From NCBI RefSeq assembly GCF_003144195.1, contig NW_020290090.1, forward strand, positions 7,521 to 57,056: a stretch of 49,536 nucleotides of DNA, written 5' to 3'. The position numbers were made by a program, and so were the translations under genes. Source of the DNA: Ceraceosorus guamensis. Taxonomy: Eukaryota; Basidiomycota; Exobasidiomycetes; Ceraceosorales; Ceraceosoraceae. How positions within the stretch are numbered: the first letter of the stretch is position 1; each line of letters starts with the position of its first letter. Below are positions 8,001 to 41,187 of the stretch, piece by piece. The notes under the pieces are model-generated. The model made no database searches. It saw nothing but the letters and a program-made list of their open reading frames with translations, and had not been told where the DNA came from.

Positions 8001-10927
8001 GCACTTCGATAGCAAACGTGGTCATGTGTTGCTTCTCTTCAGCCAGCACAGTGGGCTTTCGCTGACTGAGCTTGAATCCGGTGTTGGCAGCTTGAGTAGC
8101 TTTTCCGCCCTGTTGCCGCGGGGGAGCCAAGTTGGAGGTGCGCGTCGTAGGCGCAGCTAGCAGACCGGCAGATGACTGCCGATGCTTCCCGCACCATTCC
8201 TGCACACGATGTCGAGGTGGTGGAGAAGCGCAGAACGTCCACTGGTACTGATGCTTACTCAGCGCTCGAGCATGCCGAGCCGCCTTTTGCGCTTCTCTTG
8301 TATCCCGAGCAGCCTTTGTAGGGCTCAGCACGGAGTCGCTCTCATCCGGCGGTGCTGCAAAGAAAGGTTGCAGAAATTTGACAGTCTTGCTGCTGAATTT
8401 GAAGTTCCTTCCTGCGTACTCTCGAGCTGATTTGGGTACGTCGGCAGGATTAGAGTAGTACGGATCCTGGTAGTCAATCGTTGGCAATCCAAAGAACCCG
8501 AAAGAGTTGACCACCTCTGAAGTGAGGGGAGCTGGCACTCCGTACTGCCAAGCTTTCGTAGGCTTGGCGGAGCGATCTGAAGCGGATGCGAGAGAGTCGT
8601 GCGATGCGCTGGGTTCCGTCACAGAGGTCGAGCTTCCAGTGTTCTTACCCGTCGAGCTGGACGACTCCACACGCTGATGCGAGATACGAACGCTTGGCCC
8701 TGCGGAATCCATTGCCGAGTCCGCAAATCGCACGCCTCTGGATGCCTCTGTGGCTGAACTACCATCAGATTGGTTGCTGATCATTCGATCCCTCCGAGTA
8801 CTCCGGTCACGTCCATCGCCCGTCTCTGAGAGCTGACTATGACTATTTTGACTCAGGTCGCTATCCGGCCTGACCCTCCATTCCTGGCTGCTCCCCAGAT
8901 ACTGGCGCATCTTGTCAGCGCCACTGCCTGGCTGTATAGGATCCGTGGCGCTCCTTTTTGGCGTGGCCTCATCCTCGGCATCGGGTGAACGCGCTTGTGC
9001 TCGTGTCACAGACGTTTCAGACGCTTTGCTTTCGCTCAGTTTGTGCTGCTTCGTCTTCGTAGGCGTCACAAACGCATCGCTGGGTCTCTTCGCAGGCGTC
9101 GATTGGGTCGAAGTGGGCGTCTTTCGAAGCGAAGTGGGCGTTCGTGGTACAAAACGTCCTCCTCTCGAAGGCGTAGTGGGTGCAGACCTGCTTGCGTCCG
9201 CAGTGCGCTCTTTGGGCATCAAATCGAGCGGATCGTGTTCATCTCCAAGATTTTCGCCCCTCTCGGCACCAATCGCTGCCTTCTCCACCTCTCGCATCGC
9301 CTCTTGGAACGCGCTGCTCTGGAAGAAGCTGGTATCCACATCTTCATCTAAGCTCGTAGAAGTGTGCTGCGATGCAGACAACAAGTCGTCGAGGCTGCTT
9401 CCACCCGCATGAATGACATCGTTGCCCTCTGCGCTCTGGGAGCTTGGTACGGAGTCCAATTTGGTCGGACTGCCAGAGACCGACGAAGCGGGATTTGAAC
9501 GTGCCTGCTGCTGTGTGGCGCGGCGCTGTGTTAGAGTAAATTCCAAATCGTACATTCGGGGGCCTATCGATCCCTCAAATTCTTGTTTTGGTCCAGCCTG
9601 GTTCTGCGTAGGCTCTGGCTCATACTCGTGTTCACTGTGGTGAAAGAGTTCGACAGAATCGAAGGCACTGACAATGTAGCGATCGTAAGAGGTGCCGCCT
9701 TCGTACATTTTGCTGTCCCATCCTTTTTCCTCTCTGATCTTTGTATCCACAGCTAGCCTCTCGCTCAACGAGGCATCGAACCTGTCGCTCGCCATCCATC
9801 TAGGAGCTTCGCCTGATTTGTACTTTCTCTTCTCTCCCACCGAGTCCGGCTCCGGGATACTAGGCGGCAGTCCATCCCTTTTCCGCCGTTTTTGCTCTTC
9901 CTGCCATAGATCGGTTAATGAAGGTACTAGCTTTTGCGCAAGCGCACTGGAGGAAGGTCTCGCTTCGGGTATCTTTGAGTGGATCGGTCGTTCTTTCAGC
10001 AGGCGTCGATTTAAGATGGAGGAAGCCTTGGTGTCGATCTCGAGCGCGCAGAATGAGATGCGGTGGTACAGGTCGTCCTGAATAAGTGATGGCGCGATGG
10101 TCTCCTTCGTCCACAAATCTGCGCCAAGATTGTTCCCTGCCGATTCTAAAGGTTGTTGGGGACAGAGTGTACTTCAATTGAAATGCCTAAGCATGGACGG
10201 GCTTTGCCGAAATCGCTCACCAGGAACCGGCAGCCTGAATTTGACATGCTCTAGATCCACAAAGTCGCAACCGTACAAGTTGTAGTCGAGCATGAATTGG
10301 AGTAGATACCGAATATGGCACTCGTACGGCTGGAACTTGGTGCCGAGCACCTTGCCGCTCTGAAGGATCGTGGCCAGGCGAAAGTTGTGGGTGGGGTCGA
10401 CAAAGGAGATTTTGAGAAAGTAGTGCGGAGCGACATGGTAGCCGTAGAAAGGCACGCCTTGCACCAAATGGATGGATGCGATGTGGGAAGAGGTGGTGGA
10501 CAGCTTGCGCAGGGAGGCTGAGATGCATGCGTTCAGGCTCCTTCCGAGGCGCGAGATGTAGGAAAGGACTGCGAGCATGGGTGCGATGCGTCAAGTGAGT
10601 TGCGAATGCATGAAGGCGGATCGTGTGTGCTTGCTTACCAAAATCTGGTCGAAGACTGCCAGTGTATTCGATGTACGTGTAGGGAAACACGCCGTGGACA
10701 TGACAGCACACTCTTTGTCCCTGCGGTGTGGCACCAAAGATGCGTAGCACGGGCACTTTGCGCAGCAGAGGCTGGTCTGGCGGATTGAAAGCTGATGTAG
10801 CTCGGTCGTAAGGTGTTGGGTCGCACAGCACGTGATCGATGTTGATCAGACGCAAGCGGAATAGAGGAGTCTGCTGAAGGAGAGACGTTGCGAACTCATT
10901 CTTTGAAGCCTGACTGTGCTGCTCCAT
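5002..10927 (-). CDS. REV3: DNA polymerase zeta catalytic subunit
   Basis: Seven exons on the minus strand (10927-10639, 10568-10221, 10118-6466, 6400-6111, 6034-5864, 5779-5478, 5354-5002) encode about 1801 residues. Rev3 is the B-family polymerase that extends mismatched or lesion-containing primers in translesion synthesis, working with Rev7 and Pol31/Pol32. The N-terminal domain shows VPVLRIFGATPQGQRVC and YTYIEYTGSL. A long disordered region follows in exon 3. Polymerase motif A is DFQSLYPS at about residue 1225 and motif C is YGDTDS at about 1387. KFEK joined to VYLPCLLMAKKRYVGF across the exon 3/4 junction is diagnostic. The C-terminus carries the zinc site (CLVCG plus CIDC, split by the exon 6/7 intron) and the CysB iron-sulfur site (CASC at about 1719, then CLSVDC at about 1767). 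All seven exons join with consistent phases. The start at 10927 is chosen because MEQ precedes the conserved FRLRLINIDH; in-frame Met codons at 10954 and 11128 are possible. A low-complexity insert in CysB is unusual (see findings). Confidence 0.95.
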
Positions 10928-24122: not shown

Positions 24123-24616
24123 ATGCTCACTCAAAACTTTTTGCTCATTGCCATCGCTGCTTCGATATTCTGGAGCTGTGTGCAGGGGTTTGACGACCCA
24201 GGTTACGGCAATCTCTTCAGTACGTACCCTTGAACGAAGCTGACGAGGCTTGTGCTTTTGCTCTGCCTGCTATTCCTCTCTGAGCTCCGTGCGTTTTGCG
24301 TTTTGCAGGAGTTTTGACCTACCCGACAAATCTCTGGGATGAGAACAAGCTGAGAGCGGTCTGGACGGCCAACTGCGGCGCGGTCAACGGAAAGAAATGG
24401 GAGCTCGGCAAATTCTCACACGACACCACCATTTATTGCTATTGCAAAGCCGCGTGAGTAGCGCTCAATCGATCCTCGCACATGGAAGCTGATTCTGACC
24501 AGCATGCTTGCGCTCACAGGGATGGTACGAGCTTGGCTGTGACTGCAGCCAATGCGACCGACAGTGACACCCATGCCCTTGGTCTCGGGACATTCCTAAT
24601 AGCCTATGTGCGCTGA
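24123..24616 (+). CDS. small secreted protein, YCYD family, copy 1 (divergent)
   Basis: Three exons (24123-24219, 24309-24453, 24520-24616) encode 112 residues. Intron phases are 1 and 2, as in the other three copies. Residues 1-22 (MLTQNFLLIAIAASIFWSCV then QG) are a signal peptide; the mature chain starts FDDPGYGNLFR, with the arginine codon split by intron 1 as in the paralogs. The domain has W, a lone Cys (WTANCGAV) and ends exon 2 with IYCYCKA, where the other copies have YCYDE or YCYDR. Exon 3 ends FLIAYVR, close to copy 3 (VAYVR) and copy 4 (TAYVS). Copy 1 is the most diverged and shortest. I do not recognise the family. A secreted, plant- or host-facing effector role is inference from size, signal peptide and tandem duplication. 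Confidence 0.8.
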
Positions 24617-25473
24617 GTTCACCCGCCTGCCTCGCCCGTACTTCAACAATGGGGCCGTTCGCGCTGCGAGGTCCCACAGACTCTGTCCAGATAATAGCTG
24701 CCATTGTTGAGGCTGAATTCCACAAGTCTTCGGTATCGAACCATTGGCAACAGGCCACCTTCGTATCCGTACGCTCAGACTGCTTCATGTAATGTCAAAG
24801 ACTGCAATCTGATCATTTTAGTCAGAACTCGACCCATCGTCCTCGGTTTGTGTGGCCTAAAGGACTGCCGCGGAGTTTGACAAACAAGGTTTCGACATGC
24901 CCATGTACCTTTGGCGATGGCCAAGCAGCGTCGAGCGGCTCGCGTGCACTACGATGAGAACATTTCCACGCTTCTTTGCGGTCACCATTCAATCGAAGCT
25001 CATATGACCGGGATGTGGGCCCCAGGTACACACGTCATTACGATCTCTCATTCGCGCAGCATTGGTCGCTGCTCTCTCGTGTAAGAATAGTGCGGAGGAG
25101 CAGAGCCGCCGCAGCCTCTCTACCGAGCTCCATGATGTGAACCTCGTGGTGACGGCGGTCCGGTGGGCCAGGGCGCTTGTATCAGAAGGGGCTGAACCGA
25201 GCATCCAATGCGCAATTGTCTGCCCTCGATCACGGCCGCGCCTCTCGGGTGCGGAAGCAAGCTGCAAAGGCCGAGTGTCGCAGACGGGTGCTCCTGGTCT
25301 GGCGTAAAGGGAACGTGGACTGACTTCTTAAAAGGCTTCATTTCCTTGTGCTTCTCCATCACTTCCTCCTTCAATCAATTCAATCACTACGAGCGGCAAT
25401 ACGTACCAGCAACCAATACACATCTCAAAAACCTCATCCTTCTTTACTGGGCCTGCTTGCTTTCACGACCGAC
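24617..25473. other. spacer between array copies 1 and 2
   Basis: No gene is assignable. Minus-strand open frames here are not supported by splice sites or composition. The spacer ends with the copy 2 promoter. Confidence 0.55.
25328..25335 (+). promoter_or_regulatory. TATA-like element of array gene 2
   Basis: TTAAAAGG lies 146 bp upstream of the ATG at 25474, the same distance as the TATA boxes of copies 3 and 4 (152 and 144 bp). It is a weaker match than in the other copies. Confidence 0.4.
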
Positions 25474-26026
25474 ATGCTCTCTGTTCGCCTCTTCCGCAAC
25501 ATTTCGGTAGCTTTGCTTGGTATCCTTGGAGTCAAGGCCTTTGAGAATCCCAAACGTCACCTCCTCTACCGTGAGTGACGTCAGTCTGACTCGCGTCTCG
25601 AGTTCGGAGCGGACATCTGGCCCACAAGCTGACGCATCTAAAATTGGTACAAAAGGTGTCGTCAACGCCCCTCAGGAATGGGGAATCAATGACATCAAGA
25701 AACACTGGGCAACACATTGTGTGAAAGCCTGTAAGGATCAAGGATCGTTCATCGCGACTGAGGATGTTGGTTATTTTTCCTATGACCCAACGACCTACTT
25801 GTACTGCTACGATGAGTGAGTCAACATTGCTATGGTCGCACGACGTGGCTTCACAACAGACATCTTACGTGAGGCTGCTCGTCTTGCATCTTCGCGCTCC
25901 GTTGATGATCGCAGGCACGAGCACAGCTGGGCCACTGAAGCGGCAGACTCACTCAACCAGGAGAACATTGCAAACAGGCAGTGGGGTCAGGTGATAGGCT
26001 TGTTCTCAGTCGAGCGTGTCAGCTAG
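25474..26026 (+). CDS. small secreted protein, YCYD family, copy 2
   Basis: Three exons (25474-25570, 25656-25815, 25915-26026) encode 122 residues; introns are in phases 1 and 2. The signal peptide is about residues 1-22 (MLSVRLFRNISVALLGILGV then KA), with mature start FENPKRHLLYR. Exon 2 encodes QEWGINDIKKHWATHCVKAC, then ATEDVGYF and DPTTYLYCYDE. Exon 3 encodes HEHSWATEAADSLNQENIAN and ends SVERVS. It is closest to copy 3: exon 1 is 97 nt and exon 3 is 112 nt in both. It has an extra Cys (CVKAC) that copy 3 lacks and copy 4 has. The acceptor of intron 1 (ACAAAAG) has a poor pyrimidine tract, but the junction rebuilds the conserved arginine codon. Function is unknown; an effector role is inferred. 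Confidence 0.82.
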
Positions 26027-27166
26027 ATCGTCATCGACGCCGAGTCTCTGGAGCAAAGCGAGCGTTCAGAGACTATGCGCCCGAGATCGATTGCGATGGT
26101 CTGCTCACACTCTGACTGCACATCGTACGCTCGCACAAACAGCTGCATGTCTGCTGCATAAATGTGTGCTGAATGCACAATAGTACGCCGCAGACAGCCT
26201 ATCCCTCGCCATCCACCATATTTCCTTAGGCGGGTCTTAGTACCGAATCCGATCTTGGCACAACGGCTGTGAATGGAGTGCCTGTGTACAGGCAGACGTC
26301 CACCCGATCGCGCTTAGAGGCCGTCTGCTATTTGCCTCACCCCTTCTTACAAAACCCCGCCAGCATTCGTGGCTCTTGACTGCACGCTCTCGCCTTCGTG
26401 ACTCTTTGAAGTACAGATTCCAATCCTACCGTAAATGCACTGGGCTGAGCCTTGCGCAGAGGTCTCGAAATCGTAGGCGAGCTCAGATTGCCTGCGAGCT
26501 GAAGTAGGACTTCAATCAGGAATGCTTCTTGGGACTCCCACCGAAGCCTGTCGAGAAGGAGGAACGCGCATATGCGCCCTATCTTTTGAAAGATGCTGAC
26601 ACTCTTGATGCTCATCTATGATTGGGCATGAGCAGGCCGCATAGCTTGTGTGATGGGTTCATTGCTGAATGGACGCACGGATGGTTGGCTGACGATGCCG
26701 CACCCCGCGAGCTGTTGCTCGCGCGTCTCCAACGGCGAATTTTGATGAAGCGTAGAAAGAGAACCTGTCCTGTCTTACAAGTGGCGGAACGAAAGAGCCG
26801 CTGCATCCCCCCTAACGGCTCTACCTAGGTCTCATGACCTCATCACATTTCGGCCTGGTGGGTCCGAGGTTTTGTTGTGGGGGCCACATCCGACCGATGG
26901 ACCCCCGCTGTTTGATGGATACCTACTGCCCTGGGCTTCTGCCCAGACATGCAAGCTGTCCCTCGCATTCATTTGTAAGAAATCTGCGAATGCGGCGGCA
27001 TGTGTAGATGCGCCTATAAAAGGGGATGGTCTGCGCGTCGATTCGTCATATTTCCAACAAATTGGCTACCGCAAGCTGTCTATTATCAGCGGCTAAAATT
27101 CAGCGACAGACGCTCCCTGCGCTCTGTTTGGTCAACCATCGACGCTACTTCGGCAGCAGCCCCGAG
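26027..27166. other. spacer between array copies 2 and 3
   Basis: This is the longest spacer in the array (1.1 kb). No gene is assignable; a 92-codon minus-strand frame at 26337-26615 has no supporting features. It ends with the copy 3 promoter. Confidence 0.55.
27015..27021 (+). promoter_or_regulatory. TATA box of array gene 3
   Basis: TATAAAA (in GCCTATAAAAGGGG) lies 152 bp upstream of the ATG at 27167. It is the best consensus of the four array promoters, together with that of copy 4. Confidence 0.6.
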
Positions 27167-27709
27167 ATGGTATCTCTTCAACTTCTTCGCCTCATTTGCA
27201 TCGTCATGCTAGGAGCTATGACAGCCAAGGCCTTCGAGGACCCAAAGCGTGGTGTTCTCTACCGTGAGTGCTGTCCATGGCACTTGTGAGACTGATGCAA
27301 TGTCGAGAAATACAAAGGAGCTACGCGACCTGCTCCGAAAGGTCTTGTGAGCTATCCCCCTCAGTGGGGCATTGGGACTGTCCGGCACACTTGGGCGCAG
27401 TACTGCGTGCAAACCTTGAATGACAATCAAATGCAACTTGCAACGGAGGATGTGGGCTACTTTCCAAAAGATCCTACCATCTACCTCTACTGTTATGACG
27501 AGTGAGTCGTAAAAGCCGCACCGACCTGTAGGCCCTGTACTTGGCGCTCAACGCAATTGTATACTCACACTACTCCCATTCCCACTTCTGAGAACAGAGA
27601 GGATCATAGTTGGGCTGTTGAGGCTGCAGACGCCATCACTACGGACACCATGGCCAGTGCGCCCAAGGACACGCCGATGGTCCCTTTCCGAGTAGCATAT
27701 GTCCGCTAA
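27167..27709 (+). CDS. small secreted protein, YCYD family, copy 3
   Basis: Three exons (27167-27263, 27318-27501, 27598-27709) encode 130 residues with intron phases 1 and 2. The signal peptide is MVSLQLLRLICIVMLGAMTA then KA, with mature start FEDPKRGVLYR. Exon 2 is 24 nt longer than in copies 2 and 4, adding residues just after the split arginine (ATRPAPKGL). It carries PPQWGIGTVRHTWAQYCVQT, ATEDVGYF and DPTIYLYCYDE. Exon 3 starts EDHSWAVEAADAITTD, closely matching copy 2 (HEHSWATEAADSLNQE), and ends VAYVR. It has only two cysteines in the mature chain (YCVQ and YCYD), defining the conserved pair. Function is unknown. Confidence 0.84.
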
Positions 27710-28601
27710 GCGCTCGCAAAAGCCATATCCGATGACATCTGATCAGGCCTAGCATCCACAATCTTCATGTACTGGTAACTTGGGCGTTCACTTGATCCAA
27801 ACTCTTGGTGTCAATGATGACGGACGTACCCGCAGATATTCAATGCACGAGCCGCATCCAAAATTCGGGAAAGCGGCGAGCAGTTCACAAGATTGTGACC
27901 TTCTGGTGATCTCAGCGACCCATCTTCAATGACGACTCAGGATTTACCGTAGTCACGTGACGGGCAGCTTGCCACGCGAGTCGCGCTCCAATGGCGATTA
28001 CATCTTCGACGCCATCCGCATGCCACTTACAAGACTTCTATTCAAGATCCTACTCGCGGCCTGAGCAGAATGGAACCCATCACTGGCCTGCCTGTTTGGA
28101 ACGTTTGTTCGGACAAGCTGCTCCTTGCACATTGGTTCCCACAAGATCTCACAGATAAGACTTATCGAGTGCCGGCCCACATGGAGCTCACTGGCATCGA
28201 GAACTGTCAAGAATGGATCAAATTTTTTCCAGAGTGGCTCCAATGGCTGTCCGTGGGACGCAAATCGCAAGCCCTCGGCCCGTCCCGCGTAGTTACGCCC
28301 GCCCGGCACAATAGATGAAGGCGGATTCTAATTAGTCCAACGAGCTCGGAATCAATCAGAAGAGAATTTGGGGCAGACAAGCAAGTGGTGTTGCTGCTCG
28401 TCCGCTGCTATGTGCGTCAGCGCCTAGTCCAATCATCGACATTCCCCTTGCGTCGTGTATAAAACGGCGCCCTGGGCAAGGATTCTTCAGCCTTCACGCG
28501 CATCCCCATTCAAGTCAATTCAAGTCATCAAAACAGTCTGAGTACTTGTCGAGCGTTGCGACCCACGAGACAATCAAGAGCGAAAAGAGCACCAACTCAA
28601 C
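27710..28601. other. spacer between array copies 3 and 4
   Basis: No gene is assignable. Frames of 80-100 codons on both strands at about 27998-28318 overlap each other and show no family resemblance. The spacer ends with the copy 4 promoter. Confidence 0.55.
28458..28464 (+). promoter_or_regulatory. TATA box of array gene 4
   Basis: TATAAAA (in GTGTATAAAACGGCG) lies 144 bp upstream of the ATG at 28602, matching the position in copies 2 and 3. Confidence 0.6.
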
Positions 28602-29130
28602 ATGAAGTCCTTTGCTCTTCCGATCTTTCGCCTCGGCGTGGCCTTACTCGCCACCAGTCTCGTTGGTGTGCAAGCATTCATCGATCCCGGGTATCATCTG
28701 CTTTACCGTAAGTCAAAACACCTTGCTCTAGGTCGCGAATATTGCCTCGATGATGGTATAATCAACTGGCAGTCTTTGTTCCATGTAGGAGTCATCGATC
28801 GTCCCGTCCAATGGTCGTTCAACGAATTGGCAAGCCGATGGGCGAAGCAATGCGAGGACACGTGTAAGAAAGCTAAGTCCGACGAATACACTTCAGACAT
28901 TGGCCGTTTCCCCGGCGACCCCACCCTCTACATTTACTGTTATGACCGGTGAGTGGATGTGAAGACCAGCTGTGGTAAGTCAGTGAGCTAGATGCGCGCT
29001 GACTTGGTCACGCGGCACCATTCTGTCCAGAGCTGCTGTCAGCAAAGTCACGGAAGCAGCCAAAGGTCTCAATCAGCAAATTCGAGACAGTGGCATACTG
29101 GGCGCGTTCAGCACTGCGTATGTCAGCTGA
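28602..29130 (+). CDS. small secreted protein, YCYD family, copy 4
   Basis: Three exons (28602-28707, 28789-28948, 29031-29130) encode 121 residues with phases 1 and 2. The signal peptide covers about 25 residues (MKSFALPIFRLGVALLATSL then VGVQA); mature start FIDPGYHLLYR. Exon 2 (160 nt, as in copy 2) reads VQWSFNELASRWAKQCEDTC, SDIGRF and DPTLYIYCYDR. Exon 3 encodes KVTEAAKGLNQQIRDSGILG and ends STAYVS. Intron 1 can be read through in frame for some distance, but the acceptor at 28788 (CCATGTAG) restores alignment with copies 2 and 3, so I prefer it. Function is unknown; the gene closes the array before a gene-poor stretch. Confidence 0.82.
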
Positions 29131-31910
29131 ATGATATCAGTAGTAGGGGCTCATACTGCCAGCTCGAAACCACAGAACAACGTTGCCAGTAAGGCGCGAA
29201 TAAGGCATGCCAATTGACGTCATCCTACAAGTTGGATAGCAGTAAATGAACATACATCTTAACAGACTGCCATCGGTGTCATGTTTGCTTCGTCTGTCTT
29301 CATGTGTCCCAGCTGCAAAAGTCAATTGTTTGAGACATGGTGCTGTGTTTATGAGTCTTGAAGACTTGTTGAGAGGTCACAACTGAATTCGTTACGTGCG
29401 CCTGCGGGCGAAGGCGGAAGCCGTGTGACGATGATCGCGCTGGTTTCAAGTTTCTTGCAGCCTCATCGCCCAAGGGTCTGCAGCGAATGCACACCATTTC
29501 CACCGTGTCTGAGACCTGACCTGTAAGACAACGCGTATTGCAGCTTGTCACCTCAGTAGACTTGTTTGACATGCCAGTTTTCTGGCCCGCGTGAAGCAAG
29601 ATACGGCGCGCCCGACCAGCGGCCAAGAATCTAATACCATCAGATAGGTGTATAGCTCTGAAGTTCATGACTCAGGTGGATTGTTGCCAATTCTTGGGCC
29701 GGATAAAAACCGTCGCGCTACAAGACTAGGTGGACTGTACTACTCTCCAATTAACACCAGGTGCCGACTTGCCTGAAATAGTTGTCGTTCACACGTCATG
29801 ATCTTGAGATGTGAGGCGACTGTCTATCACTTCTGCCTCCCCTGGAAGCTAGTGGGATGAGCAGCGCCATCGACGCACAATAGGCGATGTGCTGGCGTGT
29901 CTCACAAATACCCAATTTGGCCCCTCCGATGCTCAACCCGATTGCGAACTGAAAACCGGCTTGAAGATGACTGATGCAGCCTTTTGTTCGGAGAGTCGTT
30001 GTCTTCACGATTTAGATTTCACGACTTCATGCTTCTGGACGATAAGTAATGAGATTGAAACACAACTTCCAAGCAGTACAGTAATCTGAAAAATGCTCGT
30101 GTCTGTTGTAGCGTGTCTCAGGCAATTATGACGCTGCAAAGCTCCGATTTTCGTCTGAGCTGCAATGAGAACCCCGAAATTCAGTATTTTGCGCTTTTGA
30201 GCAGCCTGTACTCGCCCGTGGTGCAAATTGGCGTGTTGGCTGGTACTGCATCGGCGCGTCTGTGCTCGCGGCCAAGTTTCTTTCGACCTCCAGAACGCGG
30301 GCGTCATTTTGATCCCGACCTGTTTGTGTGTTGTTGAGCCAGTAACCTGTAGCTCCGATAGCTGCCCGGGAAGCAATTTCAGATATCCGGCTTTTCAGCG
30401 GACCGAAAGAGTTTTGGCATACTACCTTGGGATGAACTCTGGTACTTGAGCAACCATGCTCAGAACGCAATTTGAACAGCGGTATCGAGGCTGCGTAGCC
30501 ACGCTTTCACATCTATGATTGTGTAATGACGTTTTCTTGCTGAGCGAAAGAGAGCTAGTGCATATTATGATATGATATGACGTCTGACGTATTTGTACGT
30601 GCTGAAATATTCAGCGCCGTTGCTTCACAACTTCACATTGGCCTCTTTGAGCCCTCTCTCAATTACAGGCGACATCTATGCACCACCAACAGCGAGCAGC
30701 CCAGATGTAGGCTTTCAGATGCCTAGAAGCCAAGCTGACACTCGTCAGGACCAGGATTGGCAATGCGTCGATCGCGGAAGGGCGACATTAGGTAAAAGTA
30801 GTCCCAAGCATTACTTCTACCCTTGCGACTTCTTGTCGCCCATACCTTTCTTTTCCTTGCCCGCGCAAGTCACCCAAATTCTACACAAGGCGCGTTTTGC
30901 ACTTGCCACGGATAAGTGGTGGCGTGGCAGCAGACTTTGTCGACGTTTCGCGAATATCCCTAACCCCAAGACATCTCCATTGACATTTTCGAGACTCTGC
31001 CCGACCTCAGCACTGTGGATACTTTTCCGCGCGAGAGACGCACTGCTGCCGACGAACGTCATCCGTCACCTTCCTTCAGACCGTATACTCGCCAAGCTCA
31101 ATTGATGAGGACATTTTTTGCTCTTGCATTCTTTCAATCCGACAACTTGGGCGCCACATTGTGGTGCACAGAGGGATTTGATCGTTTTCCATCTAATCTG
31201 ACTTTGTGTGTACGCGTCCAGGGCCAAATATATTCATGTTTTCAGTCCTGCGGCCCCAGATAGTTCTCGCATCTGTCCATCTACGTGATGATGATACGCA
31301 GTCTCTGTCATTTTAGTCTCTCTTTTTGAAGAGCGTTCCTCCCCGCAGGGACAGATCAGAATTTCAGCAGTAAGGGACAGACCAGATTCTATACTTCCCC
31401 ACAGCTTCGCTAGACACGACCCCCGCTAGATCAATCAACACAATTACCGGTTATTACGTTTCTTCGCTTATGATAGTTTGAGGACGCAACGCAAGAGCAA
31501 GTTCAGGCGAAAGCCTGAGACGGTGCGCTGCTGTTGGGAGCAGAGCATCACAATCACGCCATGGTCAGGACATCGATTGCAATAGAAGCAATGAGTGCAA
31601 GGAGCAGAGATCATGTCATTCTGATGCTTTGGAGCACCGCAGGCAGCCGCGAAGGAGGTGAACTCTGAATACAAGCGCAAGAGGCGCACAAACAAGAAGG
31701 TGAAAGAAGAAAGACAAGAGTTGCAAGCCAAGGGGTTGAGCAACACAAAGCTTGCCAGACTTGGAAAACAGCTGGTGAGAAAGGAGTCTTTGCAACTTTG
31801 CAAAGCAGCAAAGCGCGCTGCAATGGCGATTTCTAACCTCAAAATGGCCCATCTGGTCCTCCATCGGCAGCTCAAACGAAGCGCCCGCGTGAGATCCTGC
31901 TTTCACACTC
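29131..31910. other. gene-poor stretch downstream of the array
   Basis: No gene can be assembled. A 170-codon plus-strand frame at 30593-31105 opens at TTG, has its first good ATG near 30720 and resembles nothing I know. A Lys/Arg-rich plus frame at about 31474-31900 (TQRKSKFRRKPET, then KRKRRTNKKVKEERQELQAK) could be two exons joined in phase 0 at a CGCAG acceptor near 31640, but it lacks a convincing start and overlaps the 3' exon of the next minus-strand gene. I searched for further YCYD-family copies and found none. Confidence 0.5.
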
Positions 31911-32827
31911 TCAGAAGCACGCAATTGTCAGCAGATTGTCTGGTCCAAGCATGACATTCAAGATTGAGGCCCGGCCGATGAGGAAGAAAGAGACAGGCAT
32001 GATTTCTTGCGGTCTAATTTTGCGTGCCTGAAATCATGAGTACAGCAAGGCAGTAGGTAGACTTGATGGAGACGAACTAGCAACAACAAAAGACGCACCG
32101 GAGTTGGGCTTCGCTGGTTTTTTGGTATATTTTTTCTTTTTGGTTTTTTCAACGCGTTTTCAAGGTCGGCGGGGCCATCCTTCTCTTCGGAAGGGGGACT
32201 GTAGGCACGTACAACCTCATTCAGCAGGATGTTTGCAGGCATGCAAAGCACAACACTCATGTTACAAGCCTGTCAAACCACCCATCCTTGTTCGGCATCT
32301 GACTTGAGTCAGGGGCTGCAGGATTCTTTTTCTTCTTCTGATGGATGTGCATGACATTCAGCACTAGCGTCACAAATCCTGTTGCGTGATCACTCACGCT
32401 TGCTCTAGGCTTCAGAGACTTTTTTGGTCTTGCTGCTGCATTGTACAAGGAACATAACAATGTCTGATCAGATCTGCTTGTCTAGACGTGCTCGTGACGG
32501 CAAGCTGGGCACAACTCACGATGGTTCTGCGGCTGAGGGCTGGGTGGATGATCTGCAGGGAGAAGCACATGTGCGATTAGATGTGCTCAGGATGGCAAGC
32601 TGGGTACAACTCACAAGGTCGTCTCTCTGGCCACAGCTGTTGGTGCTGTCGGTGCTTGCGGTGCAGGCTCTGCTGGTGGTCTGCAGGAGAAAGTCAAAAT
32701 GGATTATCAGAGCTGAGTTTTCTGGCACGCTATGCACAATTCACGGCTCTGGGGTAGCCAGCACCAAGGTGAGGATGATATGACTGGCGATGAGAGAAGA
32801 CATGGCTAGGACGAGATTTGAGCTCAT
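31911..32827 (-). CDS. probable secreted Lys/Pro-rich protein, seven small exons
   Basis: Minus-strand exons 32827-32745, 32680-32615, 32552-32520, 32428-32398, 32337-32266, 32215-32099 and 32027-31911 join in phase to 172 residues. A signal peptide (MSSNLVLAMSSLIASHIILT then LVLA) is followed by TPEPPPAEPAPQAPTAPTAV, a linker with SSTQPSAAEPS, then basic segments PKKSLKPRAS, KKKKNPAAPDSSQMPNKDGW, SPPSEEKDGPADLENALKKP and KRKNIPKNQRSPTP, ending GRASILNVMLGPDNLLTIAC F. Introns 2 and 3 are alike over their first 25 nt (GTGAGTTGTRCCCAGCTTGCC), so an exon-intron unit seems to have been duplicated. Exons 2, 3 and 4 begin in the same phase. Weak points are the GTGAAT donor of intron 1, the CAAG acceptor of intron 3, and intron 5 (50 nt, GTAACA donor). 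No family is recognised. A secreted effector or wall-associated peptide is inference. RNA evidence is needed for exons 4-7. Confidence 0.5.
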
Positions 32828-34177
32828 GTTGGCAGAGGCGGGGGCGGCGGGGGGGATGGTGAAAGTCAAAAAAGGAGGAAGCCTCTGCTGTGCGTGCATC
32901 AACATGACACTGGAGTTGCGTACGAGTCCACCGTGGCGGCATCTCATCTGGGTTGCTGTTGTTTGATGAGTGACACAGTCTATCATGCGTGGATCCTGCA
33001 AAACACACAAAGTATAGTTGCGAGCATGCGCGTAAGCATCAATGAGACCGATACACACGCGGCGCACGCGTCACTGACCAGACGATGGACAATTAATCTG
33101 GAAATGCGAATCAACCCCTTGTCCAAGCGCACTCGGCCATCTCCTCTTCCTCGCGCGCGCGCGTGATTGAGCAGCAATCTGCTGAATTGTGACTCGATCG
33201 TGACTACTCACCAATCGAAATCACAGTCACGAGTGAGAGTCACGAGTGAGAGCCACGCCGCGTGATTCATTTGTTGCCCAAAGTGAAACATGTGCAGCAA
33301 GGTGAGACACATGCAGTAAAGTGGCAGCGTGCATGGCAGCCATCAAGAGGCGGTGAGATTTGCAACTTGGTAAGATTAGCTGTAGCTCAGAGTTACCCGC
33401 TGCGTTGACGTCTGCGCAGCGGTCAACGCAAGAGCTACTCGCAAGGCGCGCGTTGATGATGCTTGTGAGATCCATGATGCTTGCTGCGTGGACGCTTGCA
33501 GATGCGCGGCCACATCGGTGAGTGCGATTTGTGATCAACGCTTTGGATCTCATGATGGACGCGATGCCGAGGCGCGCGGACCTGCATGCGCTTTAAACCC
33601 CCCCAATCTTTGGTGCGCTGAGCGGCGCGTGCGCGGTAGAAGATCTGCTTTCCAATGAGTTGCGCGCAGATATGCTTTCCAACAAGATGCGCGCAGATCT
33701 CCTTTCCAATGAGTTGCGCGCATCCCGCCAAGGGGTCTGAGGCAGCAAGTCGATGCCGTCCGCTGAGGCCCGGAGAGCCAGCGCACGAAATACGGCAGCG
33801 CAAACGCGCGACGCTCCCAACCAGTGCACCCTCCCTCACCACCGCTCTCGACTAGCCCTTGCAGCATTTGTGATAACAAGATATTTGCACTTGCACTCAT
33901 CGCATCGACCGCATCGCATTGCATCGCACCGCACGTACCTATACAGTTCCCTGAGCGTCACCTTGCAAGCCTCGCCTTGCAAGCCTTGCCATGTACCTCT
34001 GATCCTTGAAACCATGTCATTGGTGAAGTGCACGCAGCCAGAAACAAGAAAGAGAATGTGTGAATCCTGTGTTCCGAGGATTGCAAGTTTGATCAGACGG
34101 TGCCAACTTGAGCGCACCACTCATCTTGCTCACTTTAAAGCGCCTCTCCCTGCCTCCTCAAGAGCCCTTCATAGAAT
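32828..34177. other. gene-poor stretch with 27-bp repeats
   Basis: No gene is assignable with confidence. Around 33435-33924 the minus strand is open in three overlapping frames because of a 27-bp repeat (33641-33721), so the frames give no evidence of coding by themselves. Motifs of the CACGAGTC family cluster at 33189-33254. Confidence 0.5.
33641..33721. repeat. 27-bp tandem repeat, three imperfect copies
   Basis: Copies at 33641-33667, 33668-33694 and 33695-33721 share AGAT-x-TGCTTTCCAA-type sequence and end GCGCGC; copies 1 and 3 differ by a single base. The 27-bp period is a multiple of three, so on the minus strand a frame reads a nine-residue repeat (CAQLIGKEI, CAHLVGKHI, CAQLIGKQI), and another reads ARNSLERRS, ARILLESIS, ARNSLESRS. 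Codon-compatible spacing hints at an origin inside coding DNA. Confidence 0.88.
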
Positions 34178-34478
34178 TCACGCACTGGGTGAGGCAACCG
34201 TGGCTGTTGCAGTGTCCTCGGGTGAGCATGCAGCAGCCTGCAAAAAAGATGCGTGACAAAGTTACTCACACGGCCAGCCCTGGCCTCCAGCTCCGCCAAT
34301 TCCCCCTCCAATTCCTCCAGGGTCTCCCGCAAGCACCGCATCCTCTCTTCAAGGATCGCGTACTGTGCTCGACGCTGAATGAGAATGCCGCAAAGGCGTT
34401 GGATTTCTCTGCAGGAAGGAGGATAAGCAGGTGCTAGTATGCAATGCATCTCTTGCAAACTCACTCTTGGTTGGTCAT
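34178..34478 (-). CDS. 70-residue coiled-coil protein, unknown
   Basis: Three minus-strand exons (34478-34465, 34408-34270, 34237-34178) with GTGAGT donors and CTGCAG / TTGCAG acceptors give 70 residues. The first exon is only 14 nt (MTNQ plus two bases). Exon 2 encodes a continuous amphipathic helix: EEIQRLCGILIQRRAQYAIL then EERMRCLRETLEELEGELAE, strongly predicted as coiled coil by heptad pattern. The tail is short and Ala/Thr-rich. The size and shape recall small subunits of coiled-coil complexes (kinetochore DASH or BLOC-type), but I see no diagnostic motif, so no identity is claimed. Clean splice sites and phase agreement are the main support. Confidence 0.5.
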
Positions 34479-36868
34479 TTTGGAAAGATGGTGTGAAGAG
34501 GAGGTGCATGGATGCATGCGCACAGAAGAGTGTCTTTGTATATTGCGCACAGAAGGGCGTCTTTGTATGTTGGCATGCTCTTCACTTGCACGCACGGGAG
34601 ATGCATTGGTGATTGAGATGAGCTTGGTGAAAATCACGAGATGAGCTCGATGAAGCAGGATTCTCTTATTGCCATTACCTGATGCGCGCAAGCATGACTG
34701 AGATGAGCTTGGCCCGCTTGATTGACATGCGCTTGATGAAGCAGCTTTCTGTGCTCAGTCGAGGGCAGCCTGATTGACATGCGCACATCGAGGAAGTCAC
34801 CAGCTTGTCAGCGAATCACCTGCTGGCGATTGCGGCAAGACTGTGGCGATGGCGACAAGTCTCGCCAGGGCGTCCCTGTGTTCTTTAGGGCGCTACATGC
34901 TATTCTAAGACTGCAAGCGGATGTCAATGGCGCACCGCCGCTCCCTGCGCTGATCGCTCTTGCATTACTGGAAACGCTACCGCTTTTTGTGTTCATATTG
35001 GACAAGGTGCGCTGCCTGCCTTAGCCCGAATACCACAGTCAAGCGCGGTATCCTGCCCTTTCACGAATAGAGCGTGTGTCTGTTTGAGCTGACTGATCGT
35101 GTCGCTGTTGCAGCGCGCGCCTGCGCCTTGCACTCTTGCAATCGCGCTCTGTGTACGCATCATCTTGACCTTTCTGATAACTATGCCAGACATTCGCGCT
35201 CAGCGCACGGAGACGTTTACAAGCAACATACTAAATTTGTCAAAGCGTTGCTGTAGGACAACATGGCTTGTGCAGACCCTATGGTGCTGGACAAGTAAAT
35301 GTCATAGAATGGAGCAGAAAAAAAAAGTCTGACCTGAGGGATGATGGTATGGGCAAGTCATTGGCCCCTCTCAGACCTAGCGTGCAGCGATCGACCTTTG
35401 GTCAGACAAAAAAAGAATTTGAGGCAGGCTCACGCAGCAGCAGACACCGCCGGCTCCTGCAAGGACGCGTGATGTTGGGGTGACCAACGGAATGATGAGG
35501 CGCAATGTTTACGCGTGAGACTTGACGGCTTCCCGTTTTCACCTTTTTTGCTCTTGTTTTGTTCTCTTCCTGTTTGAATGCGGCTGCTGCTTTTGCAAGA
35601 AGCATACAATAGCGCAAATCAGGAAGCGTTGGTGGGCATCGGTCAGCGAAGATGCATTGACAACAATACGACGGGAATGCTATCTTCCTAGGCAATTTAC
35701 CAGAGTCAAAGGCTAATAGCATAGGGGCGATCATTGATCTGCAGTCGAAAAGGCACTGCAAAGCAACTTATCTGGCGGAATCCCTTTTCTCCACATGAGG
35801 CCGACGGATCTCGCGGAGACTGATAGATTTGCCGTGATGGGCAGTGAAGTGCCCGCTGGTGCCACAAGAATTGATGGCGAAGAGGCAGATAGATGGAAGT
35901 ACAAGGTATAGAAAATAATGTACATACACTGACCTCAATATCTTGCACAATCCCAACCGAGGGAAGCGATCAGATTAACACACGAATCTACTTAGTCTGA
36001 GTCACAATGCAGATAGACGCTCTCTTTTCGGTTAATACCAAGAATAAGCCATCGATCCTCAGGAATCTCTAGGTCGTTCATTTCAATTTTGCCTTACGCC
36101 AGCTGCCTCGCGCCCGAATAGGCCCCGTTCGCCTTCTATAACCATAAATTTATGAGAGCCATCTCGTTTGTGCTGCATACCATCCCAGAAGAAGCTGTCG
36201 CGTTGCGGACGCATACTCAATGCCGGGAAGTGTGATCGATGGTGACGCGGAAGCCGACAGCTCACTCACTTCTCCTTGTTCTGTGCCTGCAGCCAATGCC
36301 CTGCTCACGGATCGACAAGCTCTCCAAGCGCGCATAGGCTTCTGTCAGAATCGAAGCGCCGTAGCTCAGCTAGGCATGAGCTGCACGCTTAGGCTTTTAA
36401 AGGACATTCTTTATGTCGCCTATTCACAGGTTCGTGCGACGGGGTGACGGACAAGTAGGTCGCGCATTGCCGGGGATACCAATTTGTTGCAGCATCGCTT
36501 TATCTGATCTTCGAGTATTGTATGCTGACATGCAAATGACTCGTGGCGAAGCCCGTGACTCGCAAGACAGTCTCTGCAGAGGTGTTGTCCATGCTGAGAG
36601 GACTTGACGAGCGATAGGACTCGTCAGGGAGAAACGGACACTTGTGCTAGACTCAAGGCGTATTCAATCTTGAGATCGATTCACATACGCTCAGCTTGAG
36701 CACACTTTTGGTGGCACTTGACGGAGGTATGAATTGGTAGGAAGTGCTCGCCGGACCAGTGGCAAAGGATTACAAATGCATCACTGCGCGTCTCTCAAAC
36801 CGCTTGTGGGAAGACCAACATTGTCCCTCTTACCAACAATCTTGACTCGTCAGCTCAAGCATATCGTT
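34479..36868. other. gene-poor stretch before the SerRS gene
   Basis: No gene can be assembled. Coding-looking scraps exist: plus-strand 34890-35010 reads LPALIALALLETLPLFVFIL before a GTGCGC donor-like site, but the antisense strand there is equally open (Ser/Ala-rich from a Met at about 34999). A Lys-rich minus-strand piece lies near 35520-35600 (FKQEENKTRAKKVKTGSRQ). A plus frame at 36220-36447 contains VPAANALLTDRQALQARI after a CTGCAG. None has a supported start and stop. These could be exons of small unrecognised genes or decayed genes. Confidence 0.45.
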
Positions 36869-39325
36869 TCATCTGCGTGAGCCAGCTTTGGTTCCCAACT
36901 GCCTACCAAGTCGCTTGAGCGGCTCTATGGTCAGCCTTGCAAAGGGACCGGCAAGCCATATACACGCCGCAATACGTAGAGGGACGATCGCCTGCAAACA
37001 TGGCCAAAAGTTGTCTAAGCACCGAAGATGGCCTCGCAAACTTTCAGCATCGACTCATCTCTGATAGCAAACGCACCTTGACGACCGCGTAGGCTGCCAC
37101 GGCATTTGCGAATCCTCCAACGAGGATTGCACCATCCACACCTTCCCCTGTTGCCTCGCTGCCCTTTTCAAAGCCGAACCAGCCTTTCTTGCGCCCAATT
37201 TTTTCTGCCCAGCGTGTCCCGTCATCGACCCAAGCGCGAAGACGGTCTCGTATTCCATTTGAAGCGGGGCCGGCGTCTTCTACAACGCTCGCCTCCACTG
37301 CGTTGGCTGGTAAGAGCCAATCAAGGACCGTCTTTCCTGCCCCAAAGAAGGCGAGGATCCAAAAGATGATCAACAGAGGTATGATTGCGCTAAGCTCGTG
37401 TAGGATCAAAAAGCTGATGACCATGCTGCCTGGGTCTGTCCCGCTTCTTGCTGCAGCCTCGCGGACGCGAGCTATGCTTCGAGCAAGGATCGAGCTGGCC
37501 GGCTGCGAAGGCGAAGAAGGGGACGAAGGCGAGGACGAGGATGGCGGTGGGGGAGGCGGAGAAGCCGTGCCTTTCTGGGGCACCTTCGTGGAGAATGTAC
37601 GAACAGATCCTGGGACACTCTGGGGTGCGTCCACAGAGCGATTGGCGACTCCGGAGGCACTTGTCGTCTCCGCATCCGCAAGCCAGTGCACCTCATCCTG
37701 GTCGCCAAGCCAATGCTCCTTCAATGCGCTTGGAAGCAGCATCTTGCCATCTCGGAAGCCATGCTGCTCGACGAGGGCCACGAGTAGACGTGGTATGGCA
37801 GCTGCAGTAGCGTTGAGCGTATGAGCATACTCCGGAGAGCTAGCATCGGCTGCAGCTGATTTGTATTTGATGGACAGACGGCGAGCCTGATAGTCGGTGC
37901 AATTGGATGCGGAGCAAACCTCGCCCCAATCTCCTCTGCCTCGCATGTATACTTCGACGTCGATCTTCTGATATGCGCTCGCACCCAGCTCGTGTGGCGG
38001 CATGTGAAGCGCCCTGTTGGCGAGAAAAAGGCGGTCAAAATCCGTGCGGCACCTCTGTCCCTCCCCTCGACTCACCTCCACGTCAATTGTAGTGCATCTA
38101 GGACGCGTAGCTGAACAGCTAGCAGCCTGTCCAACCAAGCTTCGCTGTGATCCGGCGTGCACACGACAAACAGCTCGGCTTTTGAGAACTGATGCACTCG
38201 AAAAAGTCCCCTCGTCGCTTTGCCTCGAGAGCCAGCTTCGGCTCGGAAAGCGTGTCCAGAAGCCACTTCGAAGATTGGCAGCTGCTTGGTGGAGTACTGC
38301 CTGGCCGCATGGAGACCAAGCAAAGGCAGCTCCGCTGTGGCAGCCAAGGCCAACGGCAACGCCTCGCCAGCGGCCGCTAGGGTGTATATCTGCGCGGCAT
38401 CGGCTTGCCGAGGCGCAAAGCCGCTGCGCTCTAGCAACTCTGTTGGGATCACGTCTGGGACGACGCGCAGCCGGGCACCTTCTGCAATGGCAATGCTGAG
38501 AGAGAGGCGTTCGATGGCGTGAGAGAGGATGGCGAGATGAGAGCCGAGATGCGGGAAGCCCGAAGCAGCGACCTGCTGGGGCAAGGCGGACGGGTGCAGC
38601 AGAGAGCCAGGAGAATGCTGGTGCAAAAGGTTGACGTGATCGTATTCAGGCATGGCTTTGCCTGCGCCATGCAAGTCCGGCCCGGGAACGCTTGCAATGT
38701 CGCCGCCATATCTGAATGCTTTTGGTGACACCTCCACGTCCAGATCTCCATCTCCAGCAACGCCCAACTGTTCCAGCACGTGAGCAGCGGTCCGATTGGG
38801 CAGCTTGAGCCGAAGCATCCGCGCCTCTGCCGTCACAGCTTCTTGCTCTTTCAACAGCCTCTGGTAGTCTGCCTTTGCTTCCTTCTGAGTGGCCGTCGCT
38901 GTGCTGCTCTGATCAGACAGACCGTCCACCTGATCTGCTTTTGTGCGCTGGCTCGACGACTTTTGCGCATCCCTCGCAGCAGCCAGACGCTGGTTGACAT
39001 CTACAAGTCGCTGTTTGAGCTCCACCAGGCGATCTTGATCCTCTGTGTTCAATGCTGCTCTCCTCTGCCGAGCATTGCGAATACCATCTCGCAAGTCGTC
39101 ATCATTCCATGACCACGCGGGTTGGGCTGGTGGTAGCTGCTTGTACTTGATTTGTGGAGCTGCTTGGGCATGCTGCCGTGCCGTCGTCGCAGCGGTCCTG
39201 ATAGCGAGACAAGCGCAGCGCTGTTCAAGCTCGCGACGGCGTGGCGGAGATGATGGCAGCAGGCGAGCGTGGCATGCTGAGAGGATGGAGCGGGGCACGG
39301 CGCTGCTCCGTGCAGAGACGGACAT
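36869..39325 (-). CDS. DIA4: mitochondrial seryl-tRNA synthetase fused to a FLILHELTA (Mrx11-type) membrane domain
   Basis: Three minus-strand exons (39325-38076, 38013-37077, 36991-36869) encode about 769 residues. Residues 1-35 are Arg/Ser-rich, like a mitochondrial presequence. Then come a SerRS N-terminal coiled-coil arm (RQRRAALNTEDQDRLVELKQ) and the class II core: motif 2 FRAEAGSRGKATRGLFRVHQ and motif 3 region RGDWGEVCSASNCTDYQARR. The synthetase ends near residue 527 (DQDEVHWLADAE). The frame then continues without stop or Met through a linker containing RTFSTKVPQKG and poly-Pro/Ser into MVISFLILHELSAIIPLLII (FLILHELSA at about 618-626), an IGRKKGWFGFE segment and AVAAYAVVK, joined to AIVPLRIAACIWLAGPFARL in exon 3. 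This is the Pfam FLILHELTA family, to which yeast Mrx11 belongs. Both halves share exon 2, so the fusion does not rest on a splice guess. Reaction: charges mitochondrial tRNA-Ser; the tail should anchor it in the inner membrane. An alternative is two overlapping genes, if the tail has its own 5' exon. Confidence 0.88.
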
Positions 39326-41187
39326 GACGAAGTGTGCAAGGATTGAGGGAGGGCAAGTGTTGAGGACGAGCAGAATGCGTACATGTGAGCTATGCGATCA
39401 TGATGCGACTCGCATGATGACGATGTCACAAGCACAAGCATCAATCGTGGATGAAAGGAAGGCGAGTCAAGAGTCTTGGGTCATGAGGTGAGTGTGATTA
39501 CTCAAACGTCACGTCACAAGTCGAGAAGGAGCGTGTGAGAGGTCAGGTCCACGCGCATGGCTCTAATGAGTCACGTGACTCGTGTAGGGGATGCGCGCTA
39601 CTCAAACTTTGACTATATACACAAAATAGTGAATGAGTCGTGAGTTGAGAGCTCTGGAAGTGTGCATGATCGTTGAATTCTGAATTGTGAATCGAGAGTT
39701 GTGATTGTGATTGTTGTGGATGTCGATCTGGACTCTGAGCTTCCTATCGGTACTGCTTGTCCGCGAACGGAGTGGCCACGCACACGTTGCGATATCCAGC
39801 GCTTCTCTTCGAGATTCGGAAGGGTGGCCCTGCTGTTCCACAATCTGAATCGATATGCGGGAGTGGATACAAACAGGTTCGGAGGCACGAATGAGGATTC
39901 CAGATAGTCAAAGGGCCACGATGACAAGAAGCATTCAAATTCTAGATTTTCAATTGAATGCAAATATCGAGCAAGGATTTCCTTGTCTGGTCACTAGACC
40001 TCAAGTGGCGTGGATCACGGGACATCTTCGGAGGGAGGTGTGGCGACAGGTTGTCAACTCTGAGGGCAGTCACGAGTGCACTCACGACTGTGACTCGAAC
40101 TACTACTCAACTGGTGCGGTACAGCGCAGCTAGCCGATCCATGCGCCCCATCTTGCACTCAGCCTCGATTCAGATTCGTTCGCGAATCGATTGGCCATCA
40201 CGAATCACGAATGTGCTGTGACGATATTCGATAATCTGAACGTTATGCATGGACCTCGCCACCGCTTCTCACTTCAATTGCCGCCTTGTACGCCCTTTGC
40301 CACTCATCCCCCGCGCTCACGACTGCCGCTCCCAATAGGGTCGCCATAAGCGATAAGGCGGCAGCATAGAATCGCTTTGCGAGCGAGCTTGACTGCGTTC
40401 AGTGCACCGGGACACTTGCGGCACGACGATGGAAACGTGCAGCATGCAAGTATGTCATCAATGATGGCATACAGCAGCAGTAAGTGTGAGTTGTAGTCAC
40501 GAGTCGCTGTGAGTATGAGTCACGAGTCCGTATAGCGACGGGTAGGCGCTGACATGCTATGCGTCACCTCGCCCACACCTCCACGCCAGGCCGCAATCAG
40601 TGAATCACGAATGGTGACCCCTTGGGTCTTCGCCCGCCCGCCCATCTAAACGCCCACACGCGGGCGCAGCAATTAACGTGATTGCGTGTGGCTGCGTATA
40701 CAAGCAGCTATAGTATACGCGTGCGCATACGTGATGGGGTCGGTCATCGCTATACGCCCGCGTGCCAGCGCTCTTCTCTGCGCGCTATCAGCTATGAGCC
40801 ATAGCTTCTTCTCACACTTCACGAGTCATGAGTCTATGGAGGTGGCAATACGCCATCCTCCCACAGCGCTATATATAGTTGTGCCCAACAAGGCAACGGG
40901 CGCGCGCGCGCAAAATCCAAACCGCATCGATGGTCACAACAGTTTGCTTCCCTTCTCACCTTCGCCCTTCTCGCCTCCGCGCGAGCTACAGCTAGGTGTC
41001 AGCTTCAATAAGCAGCTCCTCCTTCTCTTCTACCTACATCGCAGCGCGATTCCCAAGCTGGCTCTTGGGTGGTTGTTCCAAGCTTCCTCCTCTTGTTCCA
41101 GACGTTCTTCAAGAACACAATACAACTCGCGAGCATACAAGCTGGTCTTGTGCTTCTTCGATTCATCAGCCTCATCTCTGCTTCGCC
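39326..41187. other. divergent intergenic region, motif-rich
   Basis: This is a 1.86 kb region between divergent genes; it should hold both promoters. No gene is seen. It is the densest area for the dispersed CACGAGTC / AATCACGA motif (about 39480-39570, 39640-39715, 40060-40110, 40170-40220, 40490-40530, 40600-40617, 40820-40835). A pyrimidine-rich stretch at 40945-41110 precedes the downstream gene. Confidence 0.6.
40870..40878 (+). promoter_or_regulatory. possible TATA box
   Basis: TATATATAG lies about 310 bp upstream of the ATG at 41188 and just before a pyrimidine-rich stretch. The distance implies a long 5' UTR, so this is tentative. Confidence 0.35.

Follow-up and report, generated by a model that had tools for sequence, protein, structure and literature searches.

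Within a 49,536-nucleotide stretch of the genome of Ceraceosorus guamensis (Ceraceosorales, Exobasidiomycetes; positions 7521-57056 of the 57,056-base contig NW_020290090.1, in an assembly of 199 contigs and 23.8 Mb), hereafter 'the window', four small three-exon genes lie in tandem on the forward strand, share their intron positions and descend from a common ancestor. The proteins, all four of which are deposited under that species, are predicted to be secreted and to fold as single domains, and the reading that we favour overall, with confidence that stands about even, is that of an old tandem family of small, secreted, ferredoxin-like proteins that serve contact with a plant or with microbes. 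In kind it is familiar, tandem duplicates that are specific to their lineage and encode small secreted proteins in a relative of the smuts, whereas the family itself, as far as the searches reach, looks undescribed. The sole known source of C. guamensis is an asymptomatic leaf surface (PMC11687029), and its genus includes the Bombax leaf pathogens C. bombacis and C. africanus.

Gene structure and public annotation

An earlier reading of this DNA (the initial annotation) had described four same-strand genes of this architecture encoding secreted-type proteins, and had suggested profile searches, a comparison of substitution rates and structure prediction as checks. The gene models listed here, together with the profile scores given below, bear out that description, and its structural observations are confirmed in nearly every detail.

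24123-24219, + strand: copy 1 (YC1) exon 1, 97 nt; signal peptide, then mature start FDDPGY; includes the first base of the Arg codon split by intron 1
24309-24453, + strand: copy 1 exon 2, 145 nt; W, W, C, YCYC-KA, phase-2 end
24520-24616, + strand: copy 1 exon 3, 97 nt; end AYVR-stop
25474-25570, + strand: copy 2 (YC2) exon 1, 97 nt; FENP mature start
25656-25815, + strand: copy 2 exon 2, 160 nt; YCYD end, phase-2 donor
25915-26026, + strand: copy 2 exon 3, 112 nt; end ERVS-stop
27167-27263, + strand: copy 3 (YC3) exon 1, 97 nt; FEDP mature start
27342-27501, + strand: copy 3 exon 2, 160 nt; YCYD
27598-27709, + strand: copy 3 exon 3, 112 nt; end AYVR-stop, as in copy 1
28602-28707, + strand: copy 4 (YC4) exon 1, 106 nt; FIDP mature start
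28789-28948, + strand: copy 4 exon 2, 160 nt; YCYD
29031-29130, + strand: copy 4 exon 3, 100 nt; end AYVS-stop

The encoded proteins comprise 112, 122, 122 and 121 residues (copies 1 to 4), rather than the 112-130 first claimed. All eight introns begin with GT and end with AG, and in each of the four genes intron 1 is in phase 1, splitting an Arg codon as had been described, and intron 2 is in phase 2. Between the Cys conserved in exon 2 and an invariant Ser in exon 3 the four copies align without gaps, and intron 2 therefore splits one common codon column in every copy; the fixed intron positions, as well as the recurring exon lengths (97 nt for exon 1 in three copies and 112 nt for exon 3 in two), stand as originally reported. 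The same is true of the phase-2 intron at the end of exon 2 and of the YCYD motif that precedes it in copies 2 to 4; the YCYC offered as its counterpart in copy 1, however, starts two residues too early, the aligned equivalent there being YCKA. Copies 1, 3 and 4 have TATA-type boxes 103, 152 and 144 bases 5' of their respective start codons, and copy 2 has only a TTAAAA, 146 bases upstream of its own; the four upstream regions hold no 6-mer common to all four and no 8-mer common to three.

Two of the public protein models agree with ours letter for letter: IE81DRAFT_349863 (P0004) with copy 1 and IE81DRAFT_349864 (P0001) with copy 2. That of copy 3, IE81DRAFT_332095 (P0003), starts 13 residues later, within the signal region, and has the end of exon 3 replaced by unrelated sequence, while that of copy 4, IE81DRAFT_332096 (P0002), uses an upstream acceptor and so retains 57 nt of intron 1, so that 19 extra residues separate the Arg from the Val within what would be strand 1 (as predicted in copy 2). 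Both are at odds with the splice pattern of the family and are probably wrong; the present models are favoured because they give the family a common start and end. In the papers searched, none of the family's five locus tags, among them that of a C. bombacis relative described below, is mentioned.

Common descent, copy number and divergence

Pairwise protein identity among the four copies is 27 to 47%, in keeping with the strong divergence first noted, and their relationship emerges clearly from profiles, each of which was built without the copy being tested (E-values refer to that small set only). Copies 1 to 4 scored 49.0 bits (5.5e-14), 106.6 bits (7.5e-32), 103.0 bits (1.1e-30) and 86.9 bits (1e-25) in such leave-one-out comparisons, and the C. 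bombacis protein CBOM_03087 scored 41.5 bits with the profile that tested copy 1; none of 2000 shuffled mature sequences exceeded 10.7 bits in any of the five profile runs. A profile made from copy 1 and the C. bombacis relative alone still gave 36.7, 33.7 and 21.5 bits to copies 3, 4 and 2. At the level of DNA, a repeat finder blind to gene models groups four copies of the exon-2/donor stretch into one family, and a pattern for YCYD plus the donor has three matches in the 23.8 Mb assembly, all within this cluster (control, 0).

With copies 1, 2 and 4 as queries (copy 4 in the form of its public model), six-frame genome searches matched only the exons of this cluster. Among proteins, the four-copy profile (642 candidates) recovered the four copies and, beyond them, CBOM_03087 as a single relative, while copy 2 as a single sequence (2 candidates) recovered itself only. 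Two such word-based protein searches found no C. bombacis counterparts of copies 2 to 4, which may be either absent or unannotated. In collections of viral and prokaryote contigs, neither of them aimed at fungi, 38 and 23 stretches, respectively, match a peptide pattern, none of them by tblastn.

CBOM_03087, a hypothetical protein of 112 residues, is 84% identical to copy 1 and retains its three mature Cys and its mature Trp, but has Ser in place of the Arg that intron 1 splits in all four C. guamensis copies. The two differ at 7 of the 22 residues of the signal region and at 11 of the 90 of the mature chain, whereas the C. guamensis copies differ from one another at more than half of aligned positions. 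A tree of the five sequences joins copy 1 with CBOM_03087 (100/92), although its branch lengths are saturated and copy 3 is flagged as a long row. Because of that grouping, and of the far greater divergence of the other copies, copy 1 probably separated from them before C. guamensis and C. bombacis parted. Between paralogs, silent differences (pS, 0.68-0.83) exceed replacement differences (pN, 0.34-0.49) in all six pairs, with values near saturation and no excess of replacement change; the comparison points to constraint on replacement sites. The initial interpretation of a fast-evolving, effector-like family is accordingly upheld in part: a diverged family of predicted secreted type is found, and fast evolution is unproven.

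Predicted secretion and fold

Judged by hydropathy and a check of residues -3 to -1, all four copies have a candidate signal peptide followed by the mature start F-x-(D/N)-P that had been described: FDDP, FENP, FEDP and FIDP in copies 1 to 4, each after a hydrophobic stretch and preceded by VQG, VKA, AKA and VQA. The predicted mature chains are neutral to acidic, with isoelectric points (pI) of 4.6-6.8.

Structure prediction yields one common beta-alpha-beta-beta-alpha-beta order for copies 1 and 2. In copy 2 the predicted strands span residues 31-36, 66-73, 76-85 and 117-121 and the helices 43-60 and 92-108, with a predicted local distance difference test (pLDDT) score of 85-93 over blocks 31-100; copy 1 is predicted to have the same six elements in the same order, at 80-90 over blocks 31-110. 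The nearest solved structures, among the best 50 listed, follow this order as well. Hydrophobic moments and Chou-Fasman averages were too weak for use alone.

Nineteen residues are invariant in all five sequences, including C54 and C83 (copy 2 numbering), and none of them is His, Lys, Arg or Glu. When sequence and predicted elements are combined, I46, W50 and C54 recur at four-residue spacing along helix 1, and T79, L81 and C83 alternate with Y80, Y82 and Y84 along strand 3. Copy 3 has two mature Cys, and copies 1, 2 and 4 and the C. bombacis relative have three each, the third lying two residues before the conserved one in copy 1 and the relative, and within helix 1 in copies 2 and 4; with two or three per chain, one disulphide at most could form.

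Comparison with known families

No Pfam or NCBIfam family matched any of the four proteins at a limit of E 10 (in effect, the program's filters remove most of those weaker than about 0.1), and neither the family profile nor copy 2 found a PDB chain by sequence, copy 1 giving two chance-level matches (E 1.2 and 1.5). The UniRef title of copy 2 (P0001), 'EthD domain-containing', together with a matching order of structural elements and a Trp within helix 1, judged by eye, would make these proteins members of the EthD/dimeric alpha+beta barrel family. That identity was rejected, and we give it next to no weight: EthD (PF07110) matches none of the four proteins at the same limit and nothing in the genome, and profile-profile comparison with 19 bacterial EthD domains (from 21 matches in 7 of 94 genomes, two partial ones being omitted) scored 11.0 locally and 6.5 globally, below the 95% values of 100 column shuffles (14.8 and 9.7; medians 10.4 and 2.2), the global score lying above the shuffle median without being unusual.

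Secreted RNA-binding domains of the RRM type would share the predicted beta-alpha-beta-beta-alpha-beta order, a resemblance of fold only, and the aromatic face that strand 3 would present, along with the (F/Y) in strand 1, is reminiscent of the RNP1 and RNP2 motifs. Such an identity seems highly improbable, since the RRM profile (PF00076) matches none of the four proteins under the limit and filters just given, and the family differs from RRM and other ferredoxin-like domains in its signal peptide and its acidic to neutral charge.

Another parallel in kind is offered by the KP6-like effectors and the KP6 killer protein, short secreted chains that likewise comprise two helices and at least four strands (PMC9632046, PMC10942635). 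The KP6-like proteins of Venturia inaequalis, however, have two to four disulphides (PMC9632046), against one at most here. Neither KP6 (4GVB) nor Zt-KP6-1 (6QPK) is among the best 50 structures listed, a listing that excludes nothing. As regards gene organisation, cluster 19A of Ustilago maydis, a smut in which clusters of novel secreted-protein genes are common, encodes 24 secreted effectors (PMC4081774) and is similar in clustering genes for novel small secreted proteins, but no sequence link to the present family was found, and C. guamensis is known as an epiphyte. In their size and N-termini the four predicted proteins would fit the functional class of fungal effectors. A literature search found no ferredoxin-like secreted effectors, and the words ferredoxin and KP6 are absent from the accessible portion of PMC9816061.

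A proposed role and its alternatives

We propose that the four genes arose by ancient tandem duplication and encode secreted proteins of one small domain each, a family encountered up to now in Ceraceosorus alone. Each would be exported by way of its N-terminal signal peptide, with cleavage immediately ahead of F-x-(D/N)-P, leaving a mature chain of 90-100 residues that would adopt the beta-alpha-beta-beta-alpha-beta, ferredoxin-like fold. C54 in helix 1 and C83 in strand 3 could both face the core, where a single conserved disulphide may pin the helix to the sheet, leaving the invariant tyrosines of strand 3 (Y80 and Y82) on the opposite, exposed face. Because no His, Lys, Arg or Glu is invariant, the most likely action would be binding rather than catalysis, the partner being a protein, a ligand or a polymer of the wall that is met on the leaf or at the cell surface; the most likely use would be in contact between the fungus and a plant or other microbes, the duplicates having perhaps diverged toward different partners. 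A role at such an interface is, in our inference, the likeliest single idea.

Several points weigh against this proposal. The genes are read from sequence alone, secretion is a prediction and function a further step beyond it; the signal peptides were called by hydropathy and the -3/-1 check only. Structure models cover copies 1 and 2 only, both were made with the same five sequences, two of which are doubtful public models, residues 101-122 of copy 2 fall to a pLDDT of about 74, and copy 1 gave five models that range from 74.5 down to 55.3. Pairing of C54 with C83 is unproven, since copies 1, 2 and 4 and the relative have a third mature Cys. As a genome query copy 1 found itself only, and the queries with copies 2 and 4 recovered copies 2 to 4 but missed copy 1; a search unable to link copy 1 with the rest may therefore miss a distant fifth copy. 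The apparent restriction to the genus, finally, hinges on protein searches that rely on shared short words, which distant relatives may escape.

Three narrower accounts refine the role that the proposal leaves open. The four proteins may be plant-directed effectors that damp defence in the apoplast or in host cells, inherited from an ancestor that was a pathogen and deployed by C. bombacis against Bombax, an account that we consider possible, at somewhat less than an even chance. Small, secreted, novel and clustered genes are what smut effector loci usually hold (PMC4081774), and the pathogen C. bombacis retains copy 1; the asymptomatic source of C. guamensis (PMC11687029) argues the other way, as do the absence of accelerated replacement change (pN < pS) and of any Pfam family or PDB chain matched by profile. 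It is rather unlikely that the genes encode ordinary constituents of the wall or cell surface in yeast-stage cells, without any particular function at an interface. That copy 1 is conserved in both epiphyte and pathogen, and that replacement sites are constrained, would suit a constitutive function, and the TATA-type boxes before copies 1, 3 and 4 would suit strong expression, but the searches made (in part of viruses and prokaryotes only) showed no relative beyond the genus, which would be unusual for general wall components.

Proteins directed at microbes, which would bind or inhibit competing fungi or bacteria on the leaf, putting a small fold held by a disulphide to use in the manner of killer proteins, are a comparably doubtful account. 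Antimicrobial proteins are typically cationic, and the neutral to acidic mature chains count against it. The low number of potential disulphides relative to KP6-like proteins (PMC9632046) does so as well, although the latter, named for an antifungal protein, share the two helices and several strands (PMC9632046), copy 1 occurs in both epiphyte and pathogen, and an epiphytic smut relative antagonises an oomycete through a secreted hydrolase (PMC7870139). A more specific version, in which this genus-restricted, single-disulphide, ferredoxin-like family is possibly a disulphide-poor offshoot of the KP6-like proteins, aimed mainly at leaf microbes and kept by a harmless leaf yeast and a pathogenic relative alike, strikes us as a long shot.

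Genomic surroundings

The nearest gene with a recognised domain to the left of the family encodes an AAA ATPase (open reading frames within 20.9-22.8 kb), and the nearest to the right, on the opposite strand at 37.0-39.4 kb, a seryl-tRNA synthetase. The latter lies in one open frame (37044-39397, - strand) that holds both a mitochondrial-type seryl-tRNA synthetase and FLILHELTA (PF10306); this looks like a fusion that also occurs elsewhere, because two database proteins (P0008 and P0030) carry PF10306 and PF00587 in a single chain. Among 71 matches listed for this synthetase (8000 candidates scored), none is named as Ceraceosorus, many being nameless; the fused gene is perhaps too long for the length filter. 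The intervening 29131-37000, nearly 8 kb, is without recognised domains in the five open reading frames tested (30.6-34.6 kb, Pfam), and contains short tandem repeats at 33641-33722 and 34517-34570 (27-base spacing). Further to the left, a large open frame (6424-10173, - strand) encodes a B-family DNA polymerase with an exonuclease domain, according to Pfam families, and by its content resembles REV3. No Rfam family reached its gathering score anywhere in the window.

Implications

The cluster provides a small, clean set of orphan genes of secreted type in a smut relative known only as an epiphyte. Two of its four public models are apparently wrong, and families of this sort would thus escape secretome surveys. 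Because one copy is kept in a congeneric pathogen, the family offers a way to examine whether, in this group, effector-like families contribute to epiphytic life ahead of disease or independently of it. Were the tentative idea of a microbe-directed offshoot of the KP6-like proteins to prove true, an 'effector' of the pathogen type would be older than, and separate from, pathogenicity.

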